Virus record (IMG/VR): IMGVR_UViG_3300030002_000081
Coordinates: 1 to 31,054 of that record
DNA: 31,054 nt
Source: a virus
Direction: 5' to 3' (one strand)
The position numbers and the translations under genes were made by a program. Below are positions 3,074 to 25,783 of the stretch, one piece after another (position 1 is the first letter of the stretch; every line of letters starts with the position of its first letter). A model generated the notes under the pieces. That model was not told the DNA's origin, did no database searches, and saw only the letters and a program-made list of their open reading frames with translations.

Positions 3074-3149
3074 GTTCGATATTGGGGATAGAGGACACCC
3101 TAAACCAAACCTCTAACTAATGAAACCTTTAACCATAGAGAGAACGAAA

Positions 3150-4255: not shown

Positions 4256-6121
4256 ATGTACACACCTGAATTATTCCCCGAGCTATCCACATTCGACAAG
4301 ATAGCTTTCGACACAGAGGCCACGGGCCTCTACTACCCCAGAGATAAAGTTTTCGGCATATCGGTGTCTACCCCTGATGGCAGTGATTATTACTGGGATG
4401 TTCGCCGACAGCCAGAGGTGAAGCGCTGGTTTAATAAGCAGATGAAGTCATACAAGGGCGTAATTGCAATGCATAATGCCCACTTCGACTGCAAAATGGG
4501 CTATGGCATGGGGCTTGAAATCCCTTTGGGTCAAGTACGGTGTACTCAAATACAGGCATGCTTGATAAATGAGCACGAGATGGAATATTCCCTCGACGCT
4601 CTGTCTAAAAAGTATTTGAAAGACAACAAAGTAGATGATATCTACGAAAAATTGGCAGCTATTTTCGGTGGCCGCGCCACTCGCGCCGCGCAAATGCCTA
4701 ATCTCCATAAAGCGCCTCCCGAGCTGGTAAGCCCGTACGCCAAGCAGGATACCTCACTTACTCTGCGCCTATACGACTGGCAAGTAAATCACATCACAGA
4801 AGAAAAACTCCAAGAAGTAGTGGACTTTGAATTTGGGGTGTTCCCTACTCTGCAGCGCATGACCCGGCGTGGCGTTAGGGTAGATTTGGAAGCGGCTAAC
4901 GCGGCTATCTTGGAGCTAGATGTCATCATTGCCGAAGACCAAACCAAAATCAATTCCTTGGTGGGGTTTGAGCTTAATGTCAATAGCGCCCCGCAAATCA
5001 AAAAGGTTTTTGATCCGCACAAAGAAGGCAATGTATGGATCGCCAACAACGGCTACCAAGTAGAAACCGCCAAGAAAACGGGAGGGCCGTCGATGCCCTC
5101 CCCTGTCTTACGTGAGATGGTGAATGACCCAAGAGCGCAATTGATAGTTGATATCCGTTCTAACATCAAAACGCGCGACACATTTTTAAAGGGCCACGTA
5201 ATTGGGCATGCGGTTGGTGGCCGTGTGTATCCGTCCATCAACCAATGCAAGGGTGAGGACGGCGGTACAGGCACCGGAAGGCTGTCATACCAAGAGCCAG
5301 CACTGCAGCAGATTCCGAGCCGAAACAAACGTGTAGCTAAGATAGTTAAATCTTGTTTCCTTCCAGAGGTAGGACACCGCTGGGGCAGCACTGACATCAT
5401 GTCGTGCGACGTTCGGGTGTTTGCTCATCTGGCGAATAACGAAGTGGTTATCGCAGCGTACGCCGAGAATCCAGAACTTGACTTCCACCAATTCACCGCC
5501 GATTTGATGGGGATCAAACGAAATGCGACGTACTCGGGGGAAGTAAACGCCAAGCAGTTAAATCTATCGATGATATTTAACTCAGGGAATGGTGCTATTG
5601 CCGAGAAGTTGGGCCTTCCTTTTAAATGGGAATCCTTCACATCGCGTGGCGAATTGGTCACATACAAAAAAGCTGGCAAAGAAGCCGAAGAAGCTATATC
5701 TATGTACCACCAGAAGGTGAAGGGGGTTAAGGACCTAGCTGAACGAGCCAAGAAATGCGCCGAGCAACGCGGGTGGGTGCGAACTCACTCAGGGCGCAGG
5801 ATGAGATTCCCTAGGGGGCATAAATCATACGCCGCATCAGGGTTGATAATCCAAGGGACCGCAGCCGATGTTAACAAAACGGCTCTTACTGTTCTGGAGG
5901 CTACGTTAGCCCGTCACGATTCTTTTCTACTCCTTAATGTGCACGATTCGTTTGAATTCTCAGTGCCCCTCGAAAAAGACATAGCCGAAGTGTGCTGGGA
6001 CGTAGTTAAATCATTCCAAGATGCTTTCCCGTGGATGAGAGTACCGATGATGCTTGAGCTGAACGGCACCGGGAAAACATATTTCGAAGCATCCACGGCC
6101 AAAGGCCAATATCTCTATTAG
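4256..6121 (+). CDS. dpoZ: Family A DNA polymerase with 3'-5' exonuclease, DpoZ-type candidate
   Basis: 621 residues, no 5'-3' nuclease domain. Proofreading exonuclease: Exo I D19/E21 (FDTEATG), Exo II N74/D78 (HNAHFD), Exo III Y161/D165 (YAKQD). Polymerase: TGRLSYQEPALQQIPSRN; motif A D380-I-M-S-C-D385-V-R; motif B E429-V-N-A-K433 with L437 and F441; motif C V562-H-D564-S565. Compared with Klenow, the motif A Glu is Asp, the O-helix Arg754 position is Glu, Phe762 is Leu, Tyr766 is Phe and the motif C Glu after the catalytic Asp is Ser; the two metal-binding Asp remain. With PurZ, MazZ and DatZ 3 kb away this fits the DpoZ polymerases that accept 2-aminoadenine. GGGGGC precedes the ATG. The gene symbol reflects the context; the polymerase call itself is certain. 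Confidence 0.93.
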   Translation: MYTPELFPELSTFDKIAFDTEATGLYYPRDKVFGISVSTPDGSDYYWDVRRQPEVKRWFNKQMKSYKGVIAMHNAHFDCKMGYGMGLEIPLGQVRCTQIQACLINEHEMEYSLDALSKKYLKDNKVDDIYEKLAAIFGGRATRAAQMPNLHKAPPELVSPYAKQDTSLTLRLYDWQVNHITEEKLQEVVDFEFGVFPTLQRMTRRGVRVDLEAANAAILELDVIIAEDQTKINSLVGFELNVNSAPQIKKVFDPHKEGNVWIANNGYQVETAKKTGGPSMPSPVLREMVNDPRAQLIVDIRSNIKTRDTFLKGHVIGHAVGGRVYPSINQCKGEDGGTGTGRLSYQEPALQQIPSRNKRVAKIVKSCFLPEVGHRWGSTDIMSCDVRVFAHLANNEVVIAAYAENPELDFHQFTADLMGIKRNATYSGEVNAKQLNLSMIFNSGNGAIAEKLGLPFKWESFTSRGELVTYKKAGKEAEEAISMYHQKVKGVKDLAERAKKCAEQRGWVRTHSGRRMRFPRGHKSYAASGLIIQGTAADVNKTALTVLEATLARHDSFLLLNVHDSFEFSVPLEKDIAEVCWDVVKSFQDAFPWMRVPMMLELNGTGKTYFEASTAKGQYLY

Positions 6122-6129
6122 GGGTTACT

Positions 6130-6933
6130 ATGTTACCTATTTTCAGATGGGCCGGTGGTAAGCGACGCATGATCCCGAAACTGATGGAGCATATGCCATC
6201 AGAGTACGATACATTCATCGAGCCGTTTGTAGGCGCGGGGGCTATGTTCTTTCACCTAGAACCCGCCAAAGCTATCATTGGCGATGCTAACAGCGATTTG
6301 ATGGCAGCATATAAAGCGATCAAAGTGCTAGGCTCGGGTCTGGCAGAGCGGGTAAACGCATGGGAGAACAGCCCGACAGATTATAACATAGTCAGGTCGC
6401 TGTCCCCTGACTATTCGGTAAACAAGGGGTGCAGGTTTATTTATTTGAATAGGCTATGTGTGAACGGTTTGTGGCGTGTCAACAAAAGAGGTGGATTTAA
6501 TGTACCCTATGACTATCGGCGCAGCGGGGTAAGCCCTATCATAGATGGGGATGTGCTGGATAAGGCGCAAAAGGTGCTGAGACACGCGGCCACAATCACC
6601 TCACACTACATAAATACCACAGCATTGGCATGCGCAGGGGATGTGGTATTTATGGACCCTCCTTATATTCCTTTTACTAAAAATGGCCATGTGGACTACA
6701 CAGCTAAGGGTTTCACCGCTGCTGACCACTTAGCTCTTTGTGATGAGTTTAAAAGACTCGACTCTATAGGCTGCCGGGTGATATTGACTAACTCAGATCT
6801 TCCCGAAGTGCGTGAGATGTACGAAGGCTACACCATCGAGCGGGTAGAGACCAAATCCACCATAAAGCGCACCGCAAACCAAGGATCATACGGAGAGCTT
6901 ATCATCAGTAACAGACCTAAGGCTGAAAGTTAA
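6130..6933 (+). CDS. dam: Dam-like DNA adenine-N6 methyltransferase (D12 class)
   Basis: 267 residues, the usual length for Dam-type alpha-class enzymes. N-terminal FRWAGGKRRMIPKL matches the conserved WaGGK element; motif I is FIEPFVGAGAMFF (about residues 29-41, AdoMet binding); GDANSDL is the acidic adenosine-binding strand; the catalytic motif IV is DPPY at 176-179; C-terminal ILTNSD and IKRTANQGSYGELIISN complete the D12 pattern. It would methylate N6 of the target purine, classically in GATC. It lies 8 bases after the polymerase with an AGGGG Shine-Dalgarno. In a genome expected to carry 2-aminoadenine, the substrate may be Z rather than A, or the enzyme may act on host DNA. All hallmark motifs look intact. 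Confidence 0.92.
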   Translation: MLPIFRWAGGKRRMIPKLMEHMPSEYDTFIEPFVGAGAMFFHLEPAKAIIGDANSDLMAAYKAIKVLGSGLAERVNAWENSPTDYNIVRSLSPDYSVNKGCRFIYLNRLCVNGLWRVNKRGGFNVPYDYRRSGVSPIIDGDVLDKAQKVLRHAATITSHYINTTALACAGDVVFMDPPYIPFTKNGHVDYTAKGFTAADHLALCDEFKRLDSIGCRVILTNSDLPEVREMYEGYTIERVETKSTIKRTANQGSYGELIISNRPKAES

Positions 6934-6959
6934 AGCTAACTCTTGGCACAACAGAATAC

Positions 6960-6988
6960 TTGACAGCATCACCAGGATATGATACAAT
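6960..6988 (+). promoter_or_regulatory. Sigma-70 promoter of the purZ operon
   Basis: TTGACA at 6960-6965, 17-base spacer, TACAAT at 6983-6988 with TGA before it (extended -10). A small inverted repeat, CAGGA 6973-6977 and TCCTG 6990-6994, brackets the -10. The leader (about 6995-7057) can fold a GGGC/GCCC stem at 7005-7022. It is the only clear promoter upstream of the Z-base genes. Confidence 0.88.
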
Positions 6989-7057
6989 GTCCTGTAGTTA
7001 AGACGGGCAGGAAACACCGCCCACAATCCGGGCCGCAGAGGCTCAAATGGGGAAAAT

Positions 7058-8140
7058 ATGAAAAACAATCGTAAAGTTGATGTGGTAGTGGATTTGCAGT
7101 TCGGGTCTACTGGTAAAGGCTTGTTGTGTGATTTTCTTGCAGTGGCTGGTAAATATGACACCGTAGTTAATGCGAATCTCCCTAATGCGGGCCACACCAC
7201 AGTCACCCCGGAAGGGCGCGTCTGGATGCATAAGGCGATGCCCAACGCCGTCATGGTGTCTAAGCGCATTATGATGGGTCCCGGAAGCGCCTTCTCACCT
7301 GCCCGTTTAGCGGAAGAGCTGAAAGGGGTCGCTGACTTGATCGAAGGCAAGATTTTCGTAATCCATGAAGCTTGTATGATCGTGACCCAAGAAATGAAGG
7401 ATAAAGAGCAGCAAACTCTTTCCCGCATTTCTTCCACCATGCAAGGCTCCGGTGAAGCGGTCGTTTCAAAAATCCGCCGTGAAGTGGGTGCCATTGCCCG
7501 CGATCAGATGCCGTTGCTGGCTGAATACGGTCTCGACAAGTATGTGGTAAGCCATGCTGATTACCTCCAGCACCTGCTTGATTCTGAGAGCATCTTGGTG
7601 GAAGGCGCGCAGGGATATTCCTTGGGCCACAATTCCGGCTTTTATCCGTATTGCACCTCCCGTGACTGCACCGTAACCCGTTACATGGCAGACTGCGCCA
7701 TTCCGGCAGGGTGGTTGCGTAAAGCTATCGGTGTGGCTCGGCTTCATCCGATCCGGGTTGGCAATACTGCTGACGGCTTCAGCGGTGATATCTACCCAGA
7801 CCAAGAAGAGCTTACTTGGGAACAATTGGGCGTAGCTCCCGAGCTTACTACCGTCACCAAACGTGTTCGCCGCGTGTTCTCATTCAGCTACGCACAGATC
7901 CACGAAGCCATCATTGCCAACGGCATTGATGAGGTAATGCTAAATTTCGTAAACTACAACCCGCATCAAGCGGTTGACGTCATCGAACAGGTTAATGAGA
8001 TGATGGGCGATCTTGGCTACATCGACAAAGACATCATCACCATGGTCGGGACCGGCCCTCGCCGCGATCAGGTCATCAGTGTCCAAGAATTCTTAGACCG
8101 CTATGAAGAACGGGGCTATGGCGCGGAGGACTGCGAATAA
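7058..8140 (+). CDS. purZ: PurZ, 2-aminodeoxyadenylosuccinate synthase (PurA homologue)
   Basis: 360 residues, shorter than bacterial PurA (about 430). PurZ condenses dGMP with aspartate to 2-aminodeoxyadenylosuccinate, which host PurB turns into dZMP. The N-terminal P-loop-like segment is DLQFGSTGKG (12-21): Ser17 stands where PurA has its catalytic Asp in WGDEGKGK, the known PurZ hallmark. The general base His46 is kept (NAGHTT), as is EGAQGYSLGHNSGFYPYCTSRD, while the PurA TRVGEGPFPTE loop is altered to IRVGNTADGFSGD. First gene after its own promoter with a GGGGA ribosome site; it overlaps mazZ by one base (TAATG). Alternative: an ordinary PurA, made unlikely by Ser17 and by the MazZ and DatZ neighbours. 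Confidence 0.94.
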   Translation: MKNNRKVDVVVDLQFGSTGKGLLCDFLAVAGKYDTVVNANLPNAGHTTVTPEGRVWMHKAMPNAVMVSKRIMMGPGSAFSPARLAEELKGVADLIEGKIFVIHEACMIVTQEMKDKEQQTLSRISSTMQGSGEAVVSKIRREVGAIARDQMPLLAEYGLDKYVVSHADYLQHLLDSESILVEGAQGYSLGHNSGFYPYCTSRDCTVTRYMADCAIPAGWLRKAIGVARLHPIRVGNTADGFSGDIYPDQEELTWEQLGVAPELTTVTKRVRRVFSFSYAQIHEAIIANGIDEVMLNFVNYNPHQAVDVIEQVNEMMGDLGYIDKDIITMVGTGPRRDQVISVQEFLDRYEERGYGAEDCE

Positions 8141-8454
8141 TGAATAGCCGCTCACCTGACATCAATGCTATGATGGAAGCGCAAGCGGCGTGGATTGAAA
8201 CATTGTTGGCGGGAAGAGATTCCCGCCGCACTGTCATAAAAATGGCAGGGGAAGTGGCCGAATTGATGGAGGCTGTTACCCTAGGAACCAAAGACGTGGC
8301 CGGTGAGATCGCCGACATACTCATTTTGGCTCTGGATGTGGCTAAATTACATGGCATCGATCCATCCGAAGCGTTCTATGATAAATTGGAAATAAACAAA
8401 AATCGTTCATGGCACCCAAGCGGCGGCTGTTTACAGCACAACAAAGAGACCTAA
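8140..8454 (+). CDS. mazZ: MazZ, MazG-like (d)NTP pyrophosphohydrolase
   Basis: 104 residues, single MazG-type four-helix domain. The metal-binding signature is E38-x-x-E41 (GEVAELMEAV) and E56-x-x-D59 (GEIADILIL), followed by a C-terminal AFYDKLEINKNRSWH typical of all-alpha NTP pyrophosphatases. In Z phages the enzyme converts dGTP to dGMP, supplying PurZ, and in some cases removes dATP. Translationally coupled to purZ through a TAATG junction with GGAGG upstream, and one base before datZ. Called MazZ rather than generic MazG because of the cassette; sequence alone would support only MazG-like. Confidence 0.9.
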   Translation: MNSRSPDINAMMEAQAAWIETLLAGRDSRRTVIKMAGEVAELMEAVTLGTKDVAGEIADILILALDVAKLHGIDPSEAFYDKLEINKNRSWHPSGGCLQHNKET

Positions 8455-8455
8455 C

Positions 8456-9046
8456 ATGGACATTAAAAAATTAAGGGCTGCGTGGCACCTCAATGAAATC
8501 AAACGATTCCATATGGTGAACACCAAGACCACCCAAGACGTGGCGCAACATTCATTCAGGGTGGCGTTCATATCTAAACACATCGCTCAAATCGCAAGAG
8601 AACGCGGTATGCTAGGTATTGACCCTAATCATGCGTTCTATTTCGGCGCATGTCACGACATGGATGAGATGACTACGGGGGATATCCCTTCTCATGTTAA
8701 AATCGCTTTACGAAGTGCTGGTGTTGACATAGCCTCTTTGGCCGAAAAAGATGGGTTTAAAGAGGTAAATGGATCGTATAAATGGATCGTAAAAGCGGCA
8801 GATCTAATAGAGTCGGTCTACTGGTGTGAAGTGAATATTGACCCGCTAGACACCAGAGCAGCTAGCGTCAAAGATTTCATTTCAAAAGCTTTTGATAACT
8901 TTATGATCTATTTGATGACTTTGGAGGGGCCGGGTTCCCCTGTTGCTTATGTTGCAGTGGCTCAAGCGCGAGATGACATCGAGCACATCACCCACACTTG
9001 GTGCCAAAATTACGACTTAGAGTGGCCATCCGATGAAAGAAGCTGA
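8456..9046 (+). CDS. datZ: DatZ, HD-domain dATP triphosphohydrolase (YfbR-like)
   Basis: 196 residues. The HD-domain ligands are visible: His32 (QDVAQHSFRV), His67-Asp68 (GACHDMDE) and Asp116 (KAADLIES), with the YfbR-type MTTGDIPSHVK loop at 72-82. DatZ enzymes hydrolyse dATP to deoxyadenosine and triphosphate, clearing the competing nucleotide so that only dZTP is left for DNA synthesis. It begins one base after the mazZ stop and its end overlaps the nuclease gene by 14 bases. YfbR-like 5'-nucleotidases acting on dNMPs share this pattern; the purZ-mazZ context makes DatZ the better call. Confidence 0.9.
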   Translation: MDIKKLRAAWHLNEIKRFHMVNTKTTQDVAQHSFRVAFISKHIAQIARERGMLGIDPNHAFYFGACHDMDEMTTGDIPSHVKIALRSAGVDIASLAEKDGFKEVNGSYKWIVKAADLIESVYWCEVNIDPLDTRAASVKDFISKAFDNFMIYLMTLEGPGSPVAYVAVAQARDDIEHITHTWCQNYDLEWPSDERS

Positions 9047-9871: not shown

Positions 9872-10525
9872 ATGAACAAAACAATTACCGCATTTGTGGT
9901 GTTCGCGGCGTCGGTGTTGGTGTCTACGGGGGCAGAACCGCTGTGCCGTTGGTATGCGTTGAATTTGCCCGTGGAGTCCACAGAAAGATCACCGTTTGAT
10001 TCGTTCATGGTAAGAAAATTTCTTACCCCCGACGAGCAGGTGTCACTGGGTAGCTCCTATGATGTCACAGAAGCAGCCATGGCCATCGATAAAGGAGCCA
10101 GCGTCAAGGCCGCTATGAGAATAGAGGAGGCCAACCGGAAAGACGTCGCTACTAAAAATTTGGTCCGTGATTGGACTCGAGTGTCCGTCAATATGTGGAC
10201 CATATGTTCCGCTGAAGATGTGATGGTGTGTCTAGTAGTGGCCCCGGACAGCAGCGTTATTTATCTCAGCGGCATCGATGAGACTGAAAACCAAACATGT
10301 AAAGCATCAGTCTCTTATGCGGGCGTGGCACTGCCCCCAGTGGAAGCATATATCTACAATGGCAATCTATCTCTGTACGTACCAAAAACCAAGACTGGCA
10401 AAGACGCGATAGTTGCAGTTCGCAATACTCACATGTTTAGTGTGTCCTATGCATGTGTGGGGTCATCTGCCACATACAACTTCAAAGCCCCGCAGCCGCT
10501 GAAAAACAGAGAGGTCCCTCGGTGA
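9872..10525 (+). CDS. Exported hypothetical protein
   Basis: 217 residues. The N-terminus (MNKTITAFVVFAASVLVSTG) is a Sec signal or single membrane anchor, predicted cleavage near residues 20-22. The mature part has several Cys, a helical first third (ITPDEQ-like LTPDEQVSLGSSYDVTEAAMAIDKGA) and a beta-rich rest ending in a basic segment. It is not recognised. It lies between the Z-base operon and the ligase and overlaps the ligase start by four bases (GTGA), an odd place for an exported protein. It may act on the host envelope, for example in exclusion of other phages; that is speculation. Confidence 0.75.
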   Translation: MNKTITAFVVFAASVLVSTGAEPLCRWYALNLPVESTERSPFDSFMVRKFLTPDEQVSLGSSYDVTEAAMAIDKGASVKAAMRIEEANRKDVATKNLVRDWTRVSVNMWTICSAEDVMVCLVVAPDSSVIYLSGIDETENQTCKASVSYAGVALPPVEAYIYNGNLSLYVPKTKTGKDAIVAVRNTHMFSVSYACVGSSATYNFKAPQPLKNREVPR

Positions 10526-11439
10526 ACCGTTTAATGTTAGCTCCCAACGAACGTATCGAAGAAGTGGTTGAAAAATACCCATTGCAATGGCCGATGTTGG
10601 CGTCGGCCAAAATAGACGGTAACCGCATAGCTGTAAGGGAGAAAATGGCCATCACCCGGTCAGCTAAACGCGCCCCCAACTTATACTTACATAAGATGCT
10701 GGGGTATGACGCGTTTCACGGGATTGACGGGGAGCTTACAGTGGGTGCCCCCAACGCCGAAGACGTGTATATAAAGACGCAGGTTACACGGCGCATAAAA
10801 TCAGAGCCAGCCGATGAGCCTTGGACTCTTAATGTGTTTGACTTGTTTGATATGCCCGGTTACTCTTACTCCGATCGTTACGATATGCTGCAAGAAAAAT
10901 TCGCCACTACTCTACGTGATGTGCCTGATATCAGGCTTGTTGCTCAAAAATTAATATCATCACAAAATGAGTGTGATGATTATGAGAATGAGGAATTGGA
11001 GAACAAATACGAAGGGATTATGATCAGAAAGATACTAACCCCCTACAAATATGGTCGGTGCACCCCCAAAGAGGGTAACATTCTAAAGGTGAAACGATTT
11101 GAATTTGACGAAGCTGTGGTGGTTGATTTCGAAGAATTGATGATAAACACCAATGAAGCCTATATCGCCGAAAACGGGTATCAAAAGCGGTCCACAGCAG
11201 CAGGGGGTATGATACCCGGTGGAACCCTTGGTGCGCTGTGGTGCGCTGAAATTAAAACTGGCCTTTTGTTTAAAGTAGGGTCCGGTTTTGGCAAGGAATT
11301 GCGCCAAGAGATATGGGGCAGCCGGGATAAGTGGGTCGATGAGACCATAAGATTTAAGCATTTCCCTGTAGGGAGAAAAGACCTGCCGAGATTCCCTATC
11401 TACGCCGGTACTCGAGACCCGGACGATATTCTGCAATAG
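10522..11439 (+). CDS. ATP-dependent DNA ligase
   Basis: 305 residues from the GTG at 10522, which overlaps the previous stop (GTGA) and has AGAGGT 6 bases upstream; an in-frame ATG at 10534 is the alternative. Motif I K30-I-D-G-N-R carries the adenylated Lys; motif III region DGELTVG; motif IV EGIMIRK; motif V LKVKRFEFDE. A C-terminal OB-fold-sized part follows (about residues 195-305). Seals nicks in phage DNA during replication and repair. The small size is usual for phage ligases. No other promoter lies just upstream, so it is expressed with the exported protein gene. Confidence 0.93.
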   Translation: MNRLMLAPNERIEEVVEKYPLQWPMLASAKIDGNRIAVREKMAITRSAKRAPNLYLHKMLGYDAFHGIDGELTVGAPNAEDVYIKTQVTRRIKSEPADEPWTLNVFDLFDMPGYSYSDRYDMLQEKFATTLRDVPDIRLVAQKLISSQNECDDYENEELENKYEGIMIRKILTPYKYGRCTPKEGNILKVKRFEFDEAVVVDFEELMINTNEAYIAENGYQKRSTAAGGMIPGGTLGALWCAEIKTGLLFKVGSGFGKELRQEIWGSRDKWVDETIRFKHFPVGRKDLPRFPIYAGTRDPDDILQ

Positions 11440-11449
11440 GTACCAGTAC

Positions 11450-11478
11450 TTGACAAGGGATTTCTTCCGTAGTATAAT
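11450..11478 (+). promoter_or_regulatory. Full-consensus sigma-70 promoter embedded in a palindrome
   Basis: TTGACA at 11450-11455, 17-base spacer, TATAAT at 11473-11478. It lies 10 bases after the ligase stop and serves the two exported protein genes. Predicted start near 11485, which falls in the right arm of the 20-bp inverted repeat at 11455-11501. Confidence 0.92.
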
Positions 11479-11501
11479 GGGTACTACGGAAGAAATCCCT
11501 T
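11455..11501. repeat. 20-bp perfect inverted repeat spanning a promoter
   Basis: Left arm 11455-11474 and right arm 11482-11501 are perfectly complementary over 20 bp with a 7-base loop (TAATGGG). The left arm runs from the last base of the -35 through the first bases of the -10. Read-through RNA from the ligase would form a long hairpin, while RNA begun at this promoter would lack the left arm. There is no T-tract, so RNase III processing, an operator, or control of read-through are all possible. Confidence 0.95.
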
Positions 11502-11515
11502 TGCTGTAGGTGAAA

Positions 11516-11743
11516 ATGAAAAAGATATTGACGTTTGTTTTAATGATATCAGCGGTGCCATTCGCGCATTCGTGCGACATCAAAGATTCTCAATGTGCAT
11601 CGCAGTTGGCCAGATCATACAGCCAACTAAGCAACGAAATGTGGATACTGAGACAATGCAAAGAAACGTCGTGCCAGTCTACACACTCAGAAAAAGCCGA
11701 CAGGGTTAGCGCTGAAATAGCGCGCCTACAATCCAAACGTTAG
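11516..11743 (+). CDS. Small exported cysteine-containing protein
   Basis: 75 residues from the ATG at 11516, preceded by TAGGTG; a GTG at 11510 is in frame but has no ribosome site. Clear signal peptide MKKILTFVLMISAVPFAHS, cleavage before Cys or Asp; the residues before Cys (AHS) do not form a good lipobox. The mature part is about 55 residues, helical, with four Cys that could form two disulphides in the periplasm. Unknown function. It is the first gene of a two-gene cassette with its own promoter and a terminator, typical of a phage accessory (moron-like) unit. Confidence 0.78.
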   Translation: MKKILTFVLMISAVPFAHSCDIKDSQCASQLARSYSQLSNEMWILRQCKETSCQSTHSEKADRVSAEIARLQSKR

Positions 11744-11752
11744 GAGATTTTT

Positions 11753-12265
11753 ATGAAAAATGATTTTATCATGAAAGCTACTGTGTTCACCATTGCTTTC
11801 ATCCTTATGGCCTGCGCCGCCCATGCCAGTGTGGACATCAAGTCACCAGCCCACCAAGCCACTTGGAATAAAACCAAGTCTAAAGATGGTGTGGCAATGG
11901 GGATTACATGCAGCCCCACCGGGGTTTGCGTCACATCACCCGGAGCAACCGCCATTGAAGGTGAGACATATATGCCTGTTTTTTTGATGGGGTATGGCAG
12001 TTCTGTAGAACAGCAATGCGGTGTGGACATTGCTTGGAATGGGGGTTCTGAGTCGCTAACAAAAGTGAAAGCCCATTCTGACGGAGCCATCATTCTGTTA
12101 AATAACATATCTGAAAAAAAGGGATCAGGTGCCGTCATGGCCATGGTGGAGCAAAAAGCGTTTACTGTTCACATCAAATGTCCGGACGGCACCGACTCGA
12201 ATTCAACATTCAGTGTAGACAAAAGCTTTACATCATGGGCGTCGAAGGAGATGGTCGCGCACTAA
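11753..12265 (+). CDS. Exported hypothetical protein
   Basis: 170 residues (an internal ATG at 11771 would give 164). Signal peptide in the first 25-30 residues (MKATVFTIAFILMACAAHA), cleaved after AHA or, less well, as a lipoprotein at LMAC. The mature part is beta-rich with four Cys (ITCSPTGVCV, QQCGV, HIKCPDG), as in a small disulphide-bonded periplasmic or secreted domain. AGGAG lies before the start. Unknown function; paired with the small exported protein upstream and followed by a strong terminator. Candidates include superinfection exclusion or a periplasmic inhibitor, without sequence proof. Confidence 0.8.
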   Translation: MKNDFIMKATVFTIAFILMACAAHASVDIKSPAHQATWNKTKSKDGVAMGITCSPTGVCVTSPGATAIEGETYMPVFLMGYGSSVEQQCGVDIAWNGGSESLTKVKAHSDGAIILLNNISEKKGSGAVMAMVEQKAFTVHIKCPDGTDSNSTFSVDKSFTSWASKEMVAH

Positions 12266-12269
12266 CGTA

Positions 12270-12302
12270 AAGGTAAGGCCCGGTTTATCTGGGCCTTACC
12301 TT
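12270..12302. terminator. Bidirectional terminator between convergent gene blocks
   Basis: A 12-bp perfect stem (12270-12281 with 12291-12302) and 9-base loop. On the + strand it is followed by CATTTTG. On the - strand it is followed by TTACG-type sequence and its stem begins within the stop codon of the spanin-like gene. It ends both the early + strand and the late - strand transcripts. Confidence 0.88.
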
Positions 12303-21136: not shown

Positions 21137-23473
21137 CTACCCCTTAAATATGCCATCGTGCACATTAGCTATTTGCTTATTCATCGCCCCGATGACGTCG
21201 TTTATTTCTTTTCCCAGCCGTTCGCCAAAGTTTTTAGGCTCATCAGATTTGACATCCACATTAACTTCCCCGATATGGATCCCGCCCGGCTGCGGGGCAT
21301 TTGCTGGCTGAGCCGATGCCCTACTTGCCTCTGTCATCCTGACCCCTTTAGCTGCCGCATCATTAGCATTTCGCATAGCATCATTAGCTCGGCTCATGGA
21401 GTCGGATGCTGATTCTCTAGACGGGGTATGTTCTGTCGGCGCGGCGGCTATAAAACGCGGTCCGGGGGCTTCAGGGACCGGCATCGCTCCGGCCTGCTTT
21501 TGAGCGTTCAAGCTAGACGCCATACCCATTCGCATAACTGCAGGATCAGGAGTGAACCGCAGCACCCGCGACCTTTTCTCAAAGTCAGCTCGGGACTGTC
21601 CTTCTATCCCGGCGTCGGGGGTGCCTAAACCGCCTGCCCTGCCGATGCCGCTGGCCCACATAGCTATTGCCTGCTCAAGCCCAACGGATGTGTTTGTAAC
21701 GATCTGGCTTAATTTCTCTTTCTCCACTTGGAATTGAGCGTCATTGGCTTGCAGCCCTTCTTTCGATGTCCCTACTAACGTTTGCAATGCGGATATCACA
21801 AGCTCATTATCGTTAAGGTTAACATCTCCCTTCTGAGCCATGTCGGCGAATTGCTTGCGTAGTTCGGCCATCTTGCTGTCATCAACTTTGCCGTAGCGTT
21901 TTTGGAACTCCCCGATGTTTTCATTGAACGACTCAGTAGCACTTTTTTGGTAATCGGCCTCTTTTTGTTTTGCTTGCGCTTCTTTTTCCTTTTTACGTAA
22001 GTCCTCGTATCCCTTCCCTTTTACATCTATCTCCTTATCCGCAGCATCTACTTCTTCTTGGGTCTTCCCTCCCAGCGCCGCAGGTATTTTACCCATCATG
22101 TGGTTTATGCCCTTCTCTAAGGAAAGACTCATGCGGTCACCCAACCCGTCCAGCATATCTGGGAGATCTTTTAATTTAGAACCAAGACTTACAATGCCCT
22201 CTATGGAGCTATTGAGCATGTGCAAAGCACCAGTCGACATGTCTATCATCAGCCTTTTAAGGACAGACATTAGAGTATTCACCGGGCGCATATTCTTTTC
22301 GAGAGCTACTGTCTCCTTGGACCACGCCACCATGCCCGGAACGACTCTCGACCTGATAATAGTTTCTGTTTTTTCTTGTTCTACCTTTAGGCTTGCTTGC
22401 TCTGCCGTATAGTTTCTTGTTGATTGAGCCAAGATAGTTTCTTGTATGGCTTGCTGCTCAATCCCCTTGTTCATGTCCTTTACTTGATCGGACGTTGCTT
22501 CTATTATTTTGGATGCTTGATTGAAGTCAAGTCCGTACTGCTGCGTCGCTCTGGCCAGCGCGTAGTTTGTACCTTGCTTTTGAGCGGCTGTTCTGAGGTC
22601 GTCAACAATAACTTTCCAGATCTGGTCCATCCCTTCCAGATGCTTACCAGTCTGTATTTTGATACCTCTCGACCGCATTAATCTAGACAGAGGGTTGGTA
22701 TCAATGCCTGTCCTCATGTCGATGCCGCCCATAGGCTGGGCGCGATGAAGAGCTACCTCTTTTATCTTTTCATTAAGCCCTGATAGCCCTTTTAAACTGT
22801 CCTCACGGCTTATACCTAGGTTCTCGCCAGCTATCTGGTGTTTTAGAAGCCCTTGGGTGTTCATACCTGCTGCCCAAGCGTCTTTTTTGGTGCTTCCGTA
22901 TTTTTCTTCCGACGCTTTTGCTATGACATGACCTGACTTAACACCCCATGCGCCCGCAGCGGCTACAGCGGCAACAGCGGCAGCAATAAGGGCGACGGGG
23001 CCGCCAAGAAGGGCCAGAGACCGGGCCATGAGACCACCTGCCGTCATACCTCCTGACCCAGCTGCAGCCTCCGCCGCTGTGGCCCCCACTTCTTCCCCTC
23101 CTGCGCCATAAGCGGCACTTGGCTTTCTCATAAGAGACTGTGCGTGTTCCATGCCAGCTGACAGGACCTTTTGAACCCCGCCCTTACTGATCATGGATCC
23201 CACATCGCCTATCTGGCCTAAAATCCCTTTTACCTTTATCGCTCCATCTTTTACTTTTTCAAGTTTTTGATGGAATTTATCCGCTGAATCCCCCGCCCTA
23301 TTCATGGAGTCGGACGCGCCCTTGGCGGCATCTTCTACGCTTTTGATCCCTTTGTCACCAGCACTTTCGGTGGCTTTTCTAGCCTTTTCCGCTTTGTTGG
23401 TAACTGCGTCGATAGCTTTTTCGGTATCAGCCTTGTCTACTTCGTACTTTACATAGAATACATCAAATAGCAT
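21137..23473 (-). CDS. Tape measure protein
   Basis: 778 residues. Starts with a long coiled-coil-like helical region (KYEVDKADTEKAIDAVTNKAEKARKATESAGDKGIKSVEDAAKG), then a hydrophobic Ala/Gly segment at about 150-180 (LALLGGPVALIAAAVAAVAAAGAWGV) likely to enter the membrane. Long charged helices (EEVDAADKEIDVKGKGYEDLRKKEKEAQAKQKEADYQ) and a Pro/Ala-rich C-terminus follow. It sets tail length and is ejected; at about 1.5 angstrom per residue it predicts a tail of roughly 110-120 nm. It follows a tube-like gene and a chaperone-like gene, the expected order. No lysozyme motif seen. Confidence 0.93.
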   Translation of the reverse strand: MLFDVFYVKYEVDKADTEKAIDAVTNKAEKARKATESAGDKGIKSVEDAAKGASDSMNRAGDSADKFHQKLEKVKDGAIKVKGILGQIGDVGSMISKGGVQKVLSAGMEHAQSLMRKPSAAYGAGGEEVGATAAEAAAGSGGMTAGGLMARSLALLGGPVALIAAAVAAVAAAGAWGVKSGHVIAKASEEKYGSTKKDAWAAGMNTQGLLKHQIAGENLGISREDSLKGLSGLNEKIKEVALHRAQPMGGIDMRTGIDTNPLSRLMRSRGIKIQTGKHLEGMDQIWKVIVDDLRTAAQKQGTNYALARATQQYGLDFNQASKIIEATSDQVKDMNKGIEQQAIQETILAQSTRNYTAEQASLKVEQEKTETIIRSRVVPGMVAWSKETVALEKNMRPVNTLMSVLKRLMIDMSTGALHMLNSSIEGIVSLGSKLKDLPDMLDGLGDRMSLSLEKGINHMMGKIPAALGGKTQEEVDAADKEIDVKGKGYEDLRKKEKEAQAKQKEADYQKSATESFNENIGEFQKRYGKVDDSKMAELRKQFADMAQKGDVNLNDNELVISALQTLVGTSKEGLQANDAQFQVEKEKLSQIVTNTSVGLEQAIAMWASGIGRAGGLGTPDAGIEGQSRADFEKRSRVLRFTPDPAVMRMGMASSLNAQKQAGAMPVPEAPGPRFIAAAPTEHTPSRESASDSMSRANDAMRNANDAAAKGVRMTEASRASAQPANAPQPGGIHIGEVNVDVKSDEPKNFGERLGKEINDVIGAMNKQIANVHDGIFKG

Positions 23474-25754: not shown

Positions 25755-25783
25755 ATTATACCATCCACACAACTTTCTGTCAA
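25755..25783 (-). promoter_or_regulatory. Full-consensus late promoter for the spike and tail operon
   Basis: Read on the - strand: TTGACA 25783-25778, 17-base spacer, TATAAT 25760-25755 with TGG before it. The -35 contains the stop codon of the tube gene (TGA 25782-25780). Drives 25715 down to the fibres. Confidence 0.92.

Follow-up and report, generated by a model that had tools for sequence, protein, structure and literature searches.

A candidate transcript insulator formed by a sigma-70 promoter and a 20-bp stem-loop in a phage genome

Results

A full-consensus promoter within a perfect palindrome follows a phage ligase gene

The locus lies in a 31,054-nt stretch of phage DNA (IMG/VR record IMGVR_UViG_3300030002_000081), the whole of which is called the window below. 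An ATP-dependent DNA ligase gene, whose open frame could begin at 10453, stands upstream of and codirectional with a promoter that begins 10 nt past the ligase stop codon and heads a two-gene cassette closed by a terminator-like hairpin. This ligase-side cassette is retained in a 63.7-kb relative, G001 (IMGVR_UViG_3300020045_009460), which shares 74–79% DNA identity with the phage where blastn aligns. The features, all on the plus strand, are:

10531–11439 (+): ATP-dependent DNA ligase gene (phrog_114, 2e-45; Pfam DNA_ligase_A_M and OB_2 above cut-off)
11450–11455 (+): -35 hexamer TTGACA, read from the sequence and identical in G001
11455–11474 (+): left arm AAGGGATTTCTTCCGTAGTA, comprising the last A of the -35 hexamer, the entire spacer and the first TA of the -10 hexamer
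11473–11478 (+): -10 hexamer TATAAT, after a 17-nt spacer without a TGn extension
11475–11481 (+): loop TAATGGG, holding the remainder of the -10 hexamer
11482–11501 (+): right arm TACTACGGAAGAAATCCCTT, which takes in the predicted start and the leader's 5' half
11484–11486 (+): predicted transcription start (~11485), from sigma-70 spacing, ~7 nt past the -10 hexamer
11507–11511 (+): Shine-Dalgarno-like AGGTG, outside the hairpin; TAGGTG is retained in G001
11516–11743 (+): first cassette gene, 75 aa, signal-peptide-like start, no family
11753–12265 (+): second cassette gene, 170 aa, signal-peptide-like start, no family
12270–12302 (+): terminator-like hairpin ending the cassette, at the junction with convergent structural genes

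The first cassette gene most likely starts at ATG 11516; the alternative, GTG 11510, is less favoured, its counterpart in G001 being out of frame.

The window overlaps a second contig, G003 (IMGVR_UViG_3300030019_000047), at both ends with 99.98–99.99% identity, so that the two make up one phage of ~63.3 kb. Positions 4256–9043 of the window hold a 2-aminoadenine gene set encoding DpoZ (835 bits, cut-off 500), PurZ (300.8 bits, cut-off 300), a DatZ-like HD hydrolase (phrog_7076, 4e-22) and, by a weak match, a MazG-like protein. Judging from these genes, the phage DNA probably carries 2-aminoadenine (Z) in place of adenine.

A first-pass annotation had described the promoter as sealed in a 20-bp perfect palindrome, its left arm covering the spacer and both hexamer borders and its right arm the predicted start site, and the coordinates bear out this description. 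The hexamers match the sigma-70 consensus at 12/12 positions (TTGACA-17-TATAAT), and the two 20-nt arms (11455–11474 and 11482–11501) are 100% complementary around the 7-nt loop. The palindrome is the longest perfect short-loop inverted repeat in the window, compared with 9–13 bp for the longest in each of 100 first-order Markov shuffles, and its arm sequence has no second copy anywhere in the window. Because an identical copy is found inside an independent contig, G002 (IMGVR_UViG_3300029980_000009; 99.995% identity to the window over 22 kb), the element is not an assembly error. Promoters with 12/12 consensus bases number 5 in the 31-kb window, against 0 in each of 5 shuffles; the composite phage has 12 (23 with at least 11), and the 63.7 kb of G001 hold 16. 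It is the palindrome, and not the full-consensus promoter, that distinguishes the element, since the phage has 12 such promoters. The 11450 promoter also lacks the TGn extension that is present in 20 of the 23 phage promoters with at least 11 of 12 matches.

An Rfam search of the element gave no match, and a search of the phage collection for close DNA relatives of the element returned only weak chance matches. For the surrounding region, the same collection gave nothing beyond the ligase gene of Pseudomonas phage tabernarius, and no comparable promoter hairpin was present in that phage. The downstream cassette protein was not found among named phages, and the ligase had no relative in bacterial genomes.

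Only read-through RNA is predicted to fold, and the pairing is kept in a relative

The two transcripts that could cover the locus differ in their predicted folds, as the first-pass annotation had anticipated. RNA read through from the ligase forms the hairpin, at about -34 kcal/mol in the promoter region, whereas the first 45 nt of promoter-started RNA reach about -3 kcal/mol and form an open leader, because the start site falls within the right arm.

Conservation of the arms, which that annotation had named as the point to check, was examined in G001, where they differ in sequence and still pair. Both hexamers are unchanged at the same locus and a 19-pair hairpin is retained, although the left arm has changed from AAGGGATTTCTTCCGTAGTA to AAGGGGCTTTTCCTGTAGTA and the right arm from TACTACGGAAGAAATCCCTT to TGCTACGGGGAAGTCCCTT. 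Two pairs are altered on both sides, from U-A to C-G, as compensatory double changes; four have become G-U through a change in one arm; deletion of one partner leaves one bulge; and none of the remaining arm substitutions breaks an RNA pair. The energy of the RNA hairpin is largely kept (-33.3 kcal/mol in the window and -27.3 in G001), and that of the DNA hairpin falls by more than half (-21.2 and -9.1 kcal/mol). From these arm changes and energies, selection appears to act on the RNA pairing of the promoter spacer with the first transcribed bases. What is new in the design is that a promoter spacer covaries with its own leader at the level of RNA.

The tract that follows the stem, TTTGCTGT, has a T-score of 2.83, just under the usual cut-off of 2.895 and above both the 95th percentile of the window (2.07) and the hairpin that ends the cassette (2.17). 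The corresponding tract in G001, TTAAACAT, scores 1.78; the U-tract is weak and not conserved.

The design recurs at other promoters

The same design is found elsewhere in the phage and its relatives, beyond the scope of the first-pass annotation. Stems joining the spacer to the first transcribed bases were found in G001 at 3126(+), 49087(-) and 61020(+), with a wider stem at 58846(+), and in G003 at 46116(+) and 28783(-). Two pairs of these loci are homologous, namely G001 49087 with G003 46116 and G001 3126 with G003 28783, and at both the two sides of the stem have changed together, with T-A to G-C and C-G to G-C among the replacements. Computation shows the anatomy and the fold difference of the 11450 element, and compensatory pairing both there and at two further promoters of the phage pair. 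When an equal number of random substitutions was simulated at the three loci in both directions, the observed pairing was reached in 0.06, 0.003, 0.000, 0.008, 0.034 and 0.0002 of runs; the highest of these, 0.061, came from one direction at the 11450 locus. The other straddling stems are mostly ~10–14 bp, and the arms differ in sequence from promoter to promoter. Most lack a U-tract, several having T-scores near zero; G001 61020, of the same design, has TTTTTT past the stem (T-score 4.54). Intrinsic termination is therefore a plausible activity for some members only. A codirectional open frame precedes all five strong G001 cases, as it does most other promoters, so that read-through is possible there.

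We also compared the pairing of each spacer with its own leader to that obtained when leaders were exchanged among promoters. In this swap test, whose p values are per genome and uncorrected for the number of genomes, excess pairing was found in G001 (p 0.0001; 0.00045 without the homologue of the 11450 element), K300 (p 0.0012), Burkholderia phage Bm1 (p 0.0017, at least 10 matches) and Vibrio phage VP2 (p 0.023), and the window's own phage gave p 0.0055 with the 11450 element and 0.095 without it, a result that depends on the element. Clear individual examples lie at 193 and 11395 in Bm1, and K300 possibly holds similar elements. VP2 has a 14-bp straddling stem ahead of its major head protein, and phiVC8 has the same element with one G-U pair. 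In the T4-type phage RB49, stems straddle the -10 hexamer at 36985(-), 3201(-), 39130(-), 119937(-) and 2832(-), and many spacer dyads are present; its promoter set as a whole showed no excess pairing (p 0.13). No excess was found in six more distant Z-type contigs (G005, G009, G010, G015, G016 and G022), and on that account we gave up the idea that every phage with the Z gene set shares the pattern.

Relation to known promoter hairpins

The nearest comparison is with the PeSL (promoter-early stem-loop) elements found in T4-type phages and described in RB49, which are reportedly near-identical repeats that mediate recombination and act as effective terminators. The likeness lies in a strong sigma-70 promoter joined to a stem-loop in a short intergenic cassette with small accessory genes adjoining; at 11450 the promoter has 12/12 hexamer bases with a 17-nt spacer, and the associated stem is 20 bp. 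The elements differ in that every hairpin here has its own sequence, near-identical recombining copies not being found, in that the U-tract at 11450 is weak (2.83 against the 2.895 cut-off, and 1.78 in G001), and in that the genome carrying the element is not T4-type but that of a ~63-kb phage with DpoZ and PurZ.

In T4, the leaders of gene e, soc, 49 and I-TevI form a hairpin with a late promoter within its 5' arm; read-through RNA alone folds, and transcripts begun at the internal promoter are missing that arm (PMC3014915). The 11450 promoter likewise leaves its own RNA without the 5' arm, and only read-through RNA is predicted to fold; in the T4 leaders, however, the stem encloses the ribosome site and a late promoter is used, whereas the 11450 element has a plain sigma-70 promoter and a ribosome site beyond the stem. 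A further parallel is the hairpin of Vibrio phage phiVC8 at 5460–5511, annotated by its authors as a putative rho-independent terminator (PMC4802629). This hairpin straddles TTGACT-17-TATAAT with the geometry seen at 11450, but it was annotated as a terminator alone, the internal promoter passing unremarked, and it has no U-tract. The same phage has 20-bp perfect palindromes around GTCGAC just 5' of ribosome sites (PMC4802629, Table 3), which suggests that genes in the phiVC8 group are commonly preceded by stem-loops. Since PeSL-like composites and the T4 leaders already pair promoters with stem-loops, the 11450 element is best described as a variant of a known design.

Discussion

A proposed composite insulator and its alternatives

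We give about an even chance to the reading that the 11450 element is a composite of promoter and RNA stem-loop, akin to the PeSL elements, that serves as a transcript insulator. A strong host sigma-70 promoter would be positioned so that its start site splits the hairpin. RNA reading through from the ligase operon would carry both arms, form the 20-bp stem-loop before the next gene, and there be terminated, cut, or trimmed as far as the stem. The promoter's own RNA would begin in the right arm, lack the left arm and, with its leader open, be freely expressed, and the two-gene cassette would thereby be uncoupled from its ligase neighbour. We infer both that read-through occurs and that the hairpin lowers it; the acting activity would be weak intrinsic termination, RNase III, or Rho termination with 3' trimming. 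What the members share is a stem on the 3' side of the upstream gene, absent from the promoter's own RNA. Besides the conserved pairing, the composite at promoter 25783(-) and the terminator annotation of the phiVC8 hairpin speak for an insulator. Against it stand the weak U-tract at 11450 and its lack at most other members, the shortness of most other stems for RNase III, the swap-test p of 0.095 for the window's own phage without the 11450 element, the six Z-type contigs that show no excess, and the 0.061 from one direction of the simulation at 11450.

Two alternatives are specific forms of the insulator, so that the weight given to them overlaps with its own, and each taken by itself is rather unlikely. 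RNase III might cleave the stem in read-through RNA and part the ligase mRNA from the downstream one: 20 perfect pairs amount to about two helical turns, a good substrate for the enzyme, and pairing at the RNA level is preserved in G001. The other members, with only ~10–14 pairs, are short for RNase III, which fits the 20-bp stem better than the shorter stems of the family and would leave that family unexplained. The element might equally be the intrinsic terminator of the ligase operon, incidentally containing the next promoter; the strong stem, a T-score that exceeds those of most of the window and of the cassette's end hairpin, and the T-rich tract at G001 61020 speak for this form, but the low score of the G001 homologue and the lack of a U-tract at most members weigh against it, and the 11450 site was not listed by a terminator scan of the window.

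The remaining alternatives depart from an insulator altogether. Perfect symmetry over 47 bp, including both hexamer borders, would suit an element read in DNA, such as an operator bound by a dimeric regulator or a cruciform closing off the promoter. The first-pass annotation had put forward both an operator and a cruciform. We regard such a role as improbable: symmetry in G001 is broken at five positions by changes that retain RNA pairing as G-U or leave the one bulge, the DNA hairpin loses more than half its energy, conserved symmetric operator half-sites were not found at 11450 as the halves diverge in this way, and the arms differ at every other promoter of the set, leaving no shared binding motif. 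A translation switch like that of T4 gene e or I-TevI, in which the read-through hairpin hides the ribosome site, has the right topology, with the promoter in the 5' arm and only read-through RNA folding. It too has little likelihood, given that the Shine-Dalgarno sequence (11507–11511) and ATG 11516 lie outside the stem and that predicted openness of the former shows no clear difference between read-through (0.17–0.32) and promoter-started RNA (0.32). Least probable is a functionless by-product of mutation, a quasi-palindrome perfected by template switching; the arms are indeed perfect in the window and imperfect in G001, but double compensatory changes at three unrelated loci and excess pairing in several genomes speak against it. 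A Frpo-like single-stranded promoter was considered and dropped, as neither hexamer is double-stranded within the hairpin.

Genes are tightly packed in phages, and neighbouring operons need to be separated in very few bases. A promoter and a stem-loop that share 50 bp, with the promoter's own RNA escaping the loop, would insulate economically. Judging from the compensatory changes, RNA pairing may constrain a promoter spacer, a factor that promoter models ignore. The changes also provide a simple rule by which similar elements can be sought in other phages. More tentatively, and with the balance tilting against it, phages with the 2-aminoadenine gene set may have a class of 'split-hairpin' promoters, in which the spacer is selected to pair with the first transcribed bases, the RNA records whether it began at its own or an upstream start, and read-through RNA is disposed of. 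If this were true, the sigma-70 spacer, normally thought to be sequence-free, would be under pairing selection.

Additional observations

Another composite is found at promoter 25783(-), which has full consensus (25755–25783) and runs directly into a terminator-like hairpin, AAAGGACGG/CCGTCCTTT with TTTTCTTT. The left arm of this hairpin overlaps the start site expected there and precedes most of the transcript. This composite is conserved in G001 at 23257 and looks like a true terminator placed at the promoter start site.

The non-orthologous elements at G001 61020 and G003 28783 resemble each other in the right arm and the leader, with 78% identity over 68 bp, as though the cassette had moved. 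Position 1 of the window corresponds to G003 46120, so that the left end of the window falls inside the hairpin promoter at G003 46116, possibly through an assembly break there. Lastly, a short dyad lying entirely within the spacer and ending in the TGn extension, for example CACGGGCTTCGGCCCGTG or CCACAGGGATGTGG, is present at many promoters, among them 1771 and 3045 in the window and 60413, 60682, 62318, 46074 and 57871 in G001, and RB49 has promoters with comparable spacer dyads (GGGGATCNNNGATCCCC).
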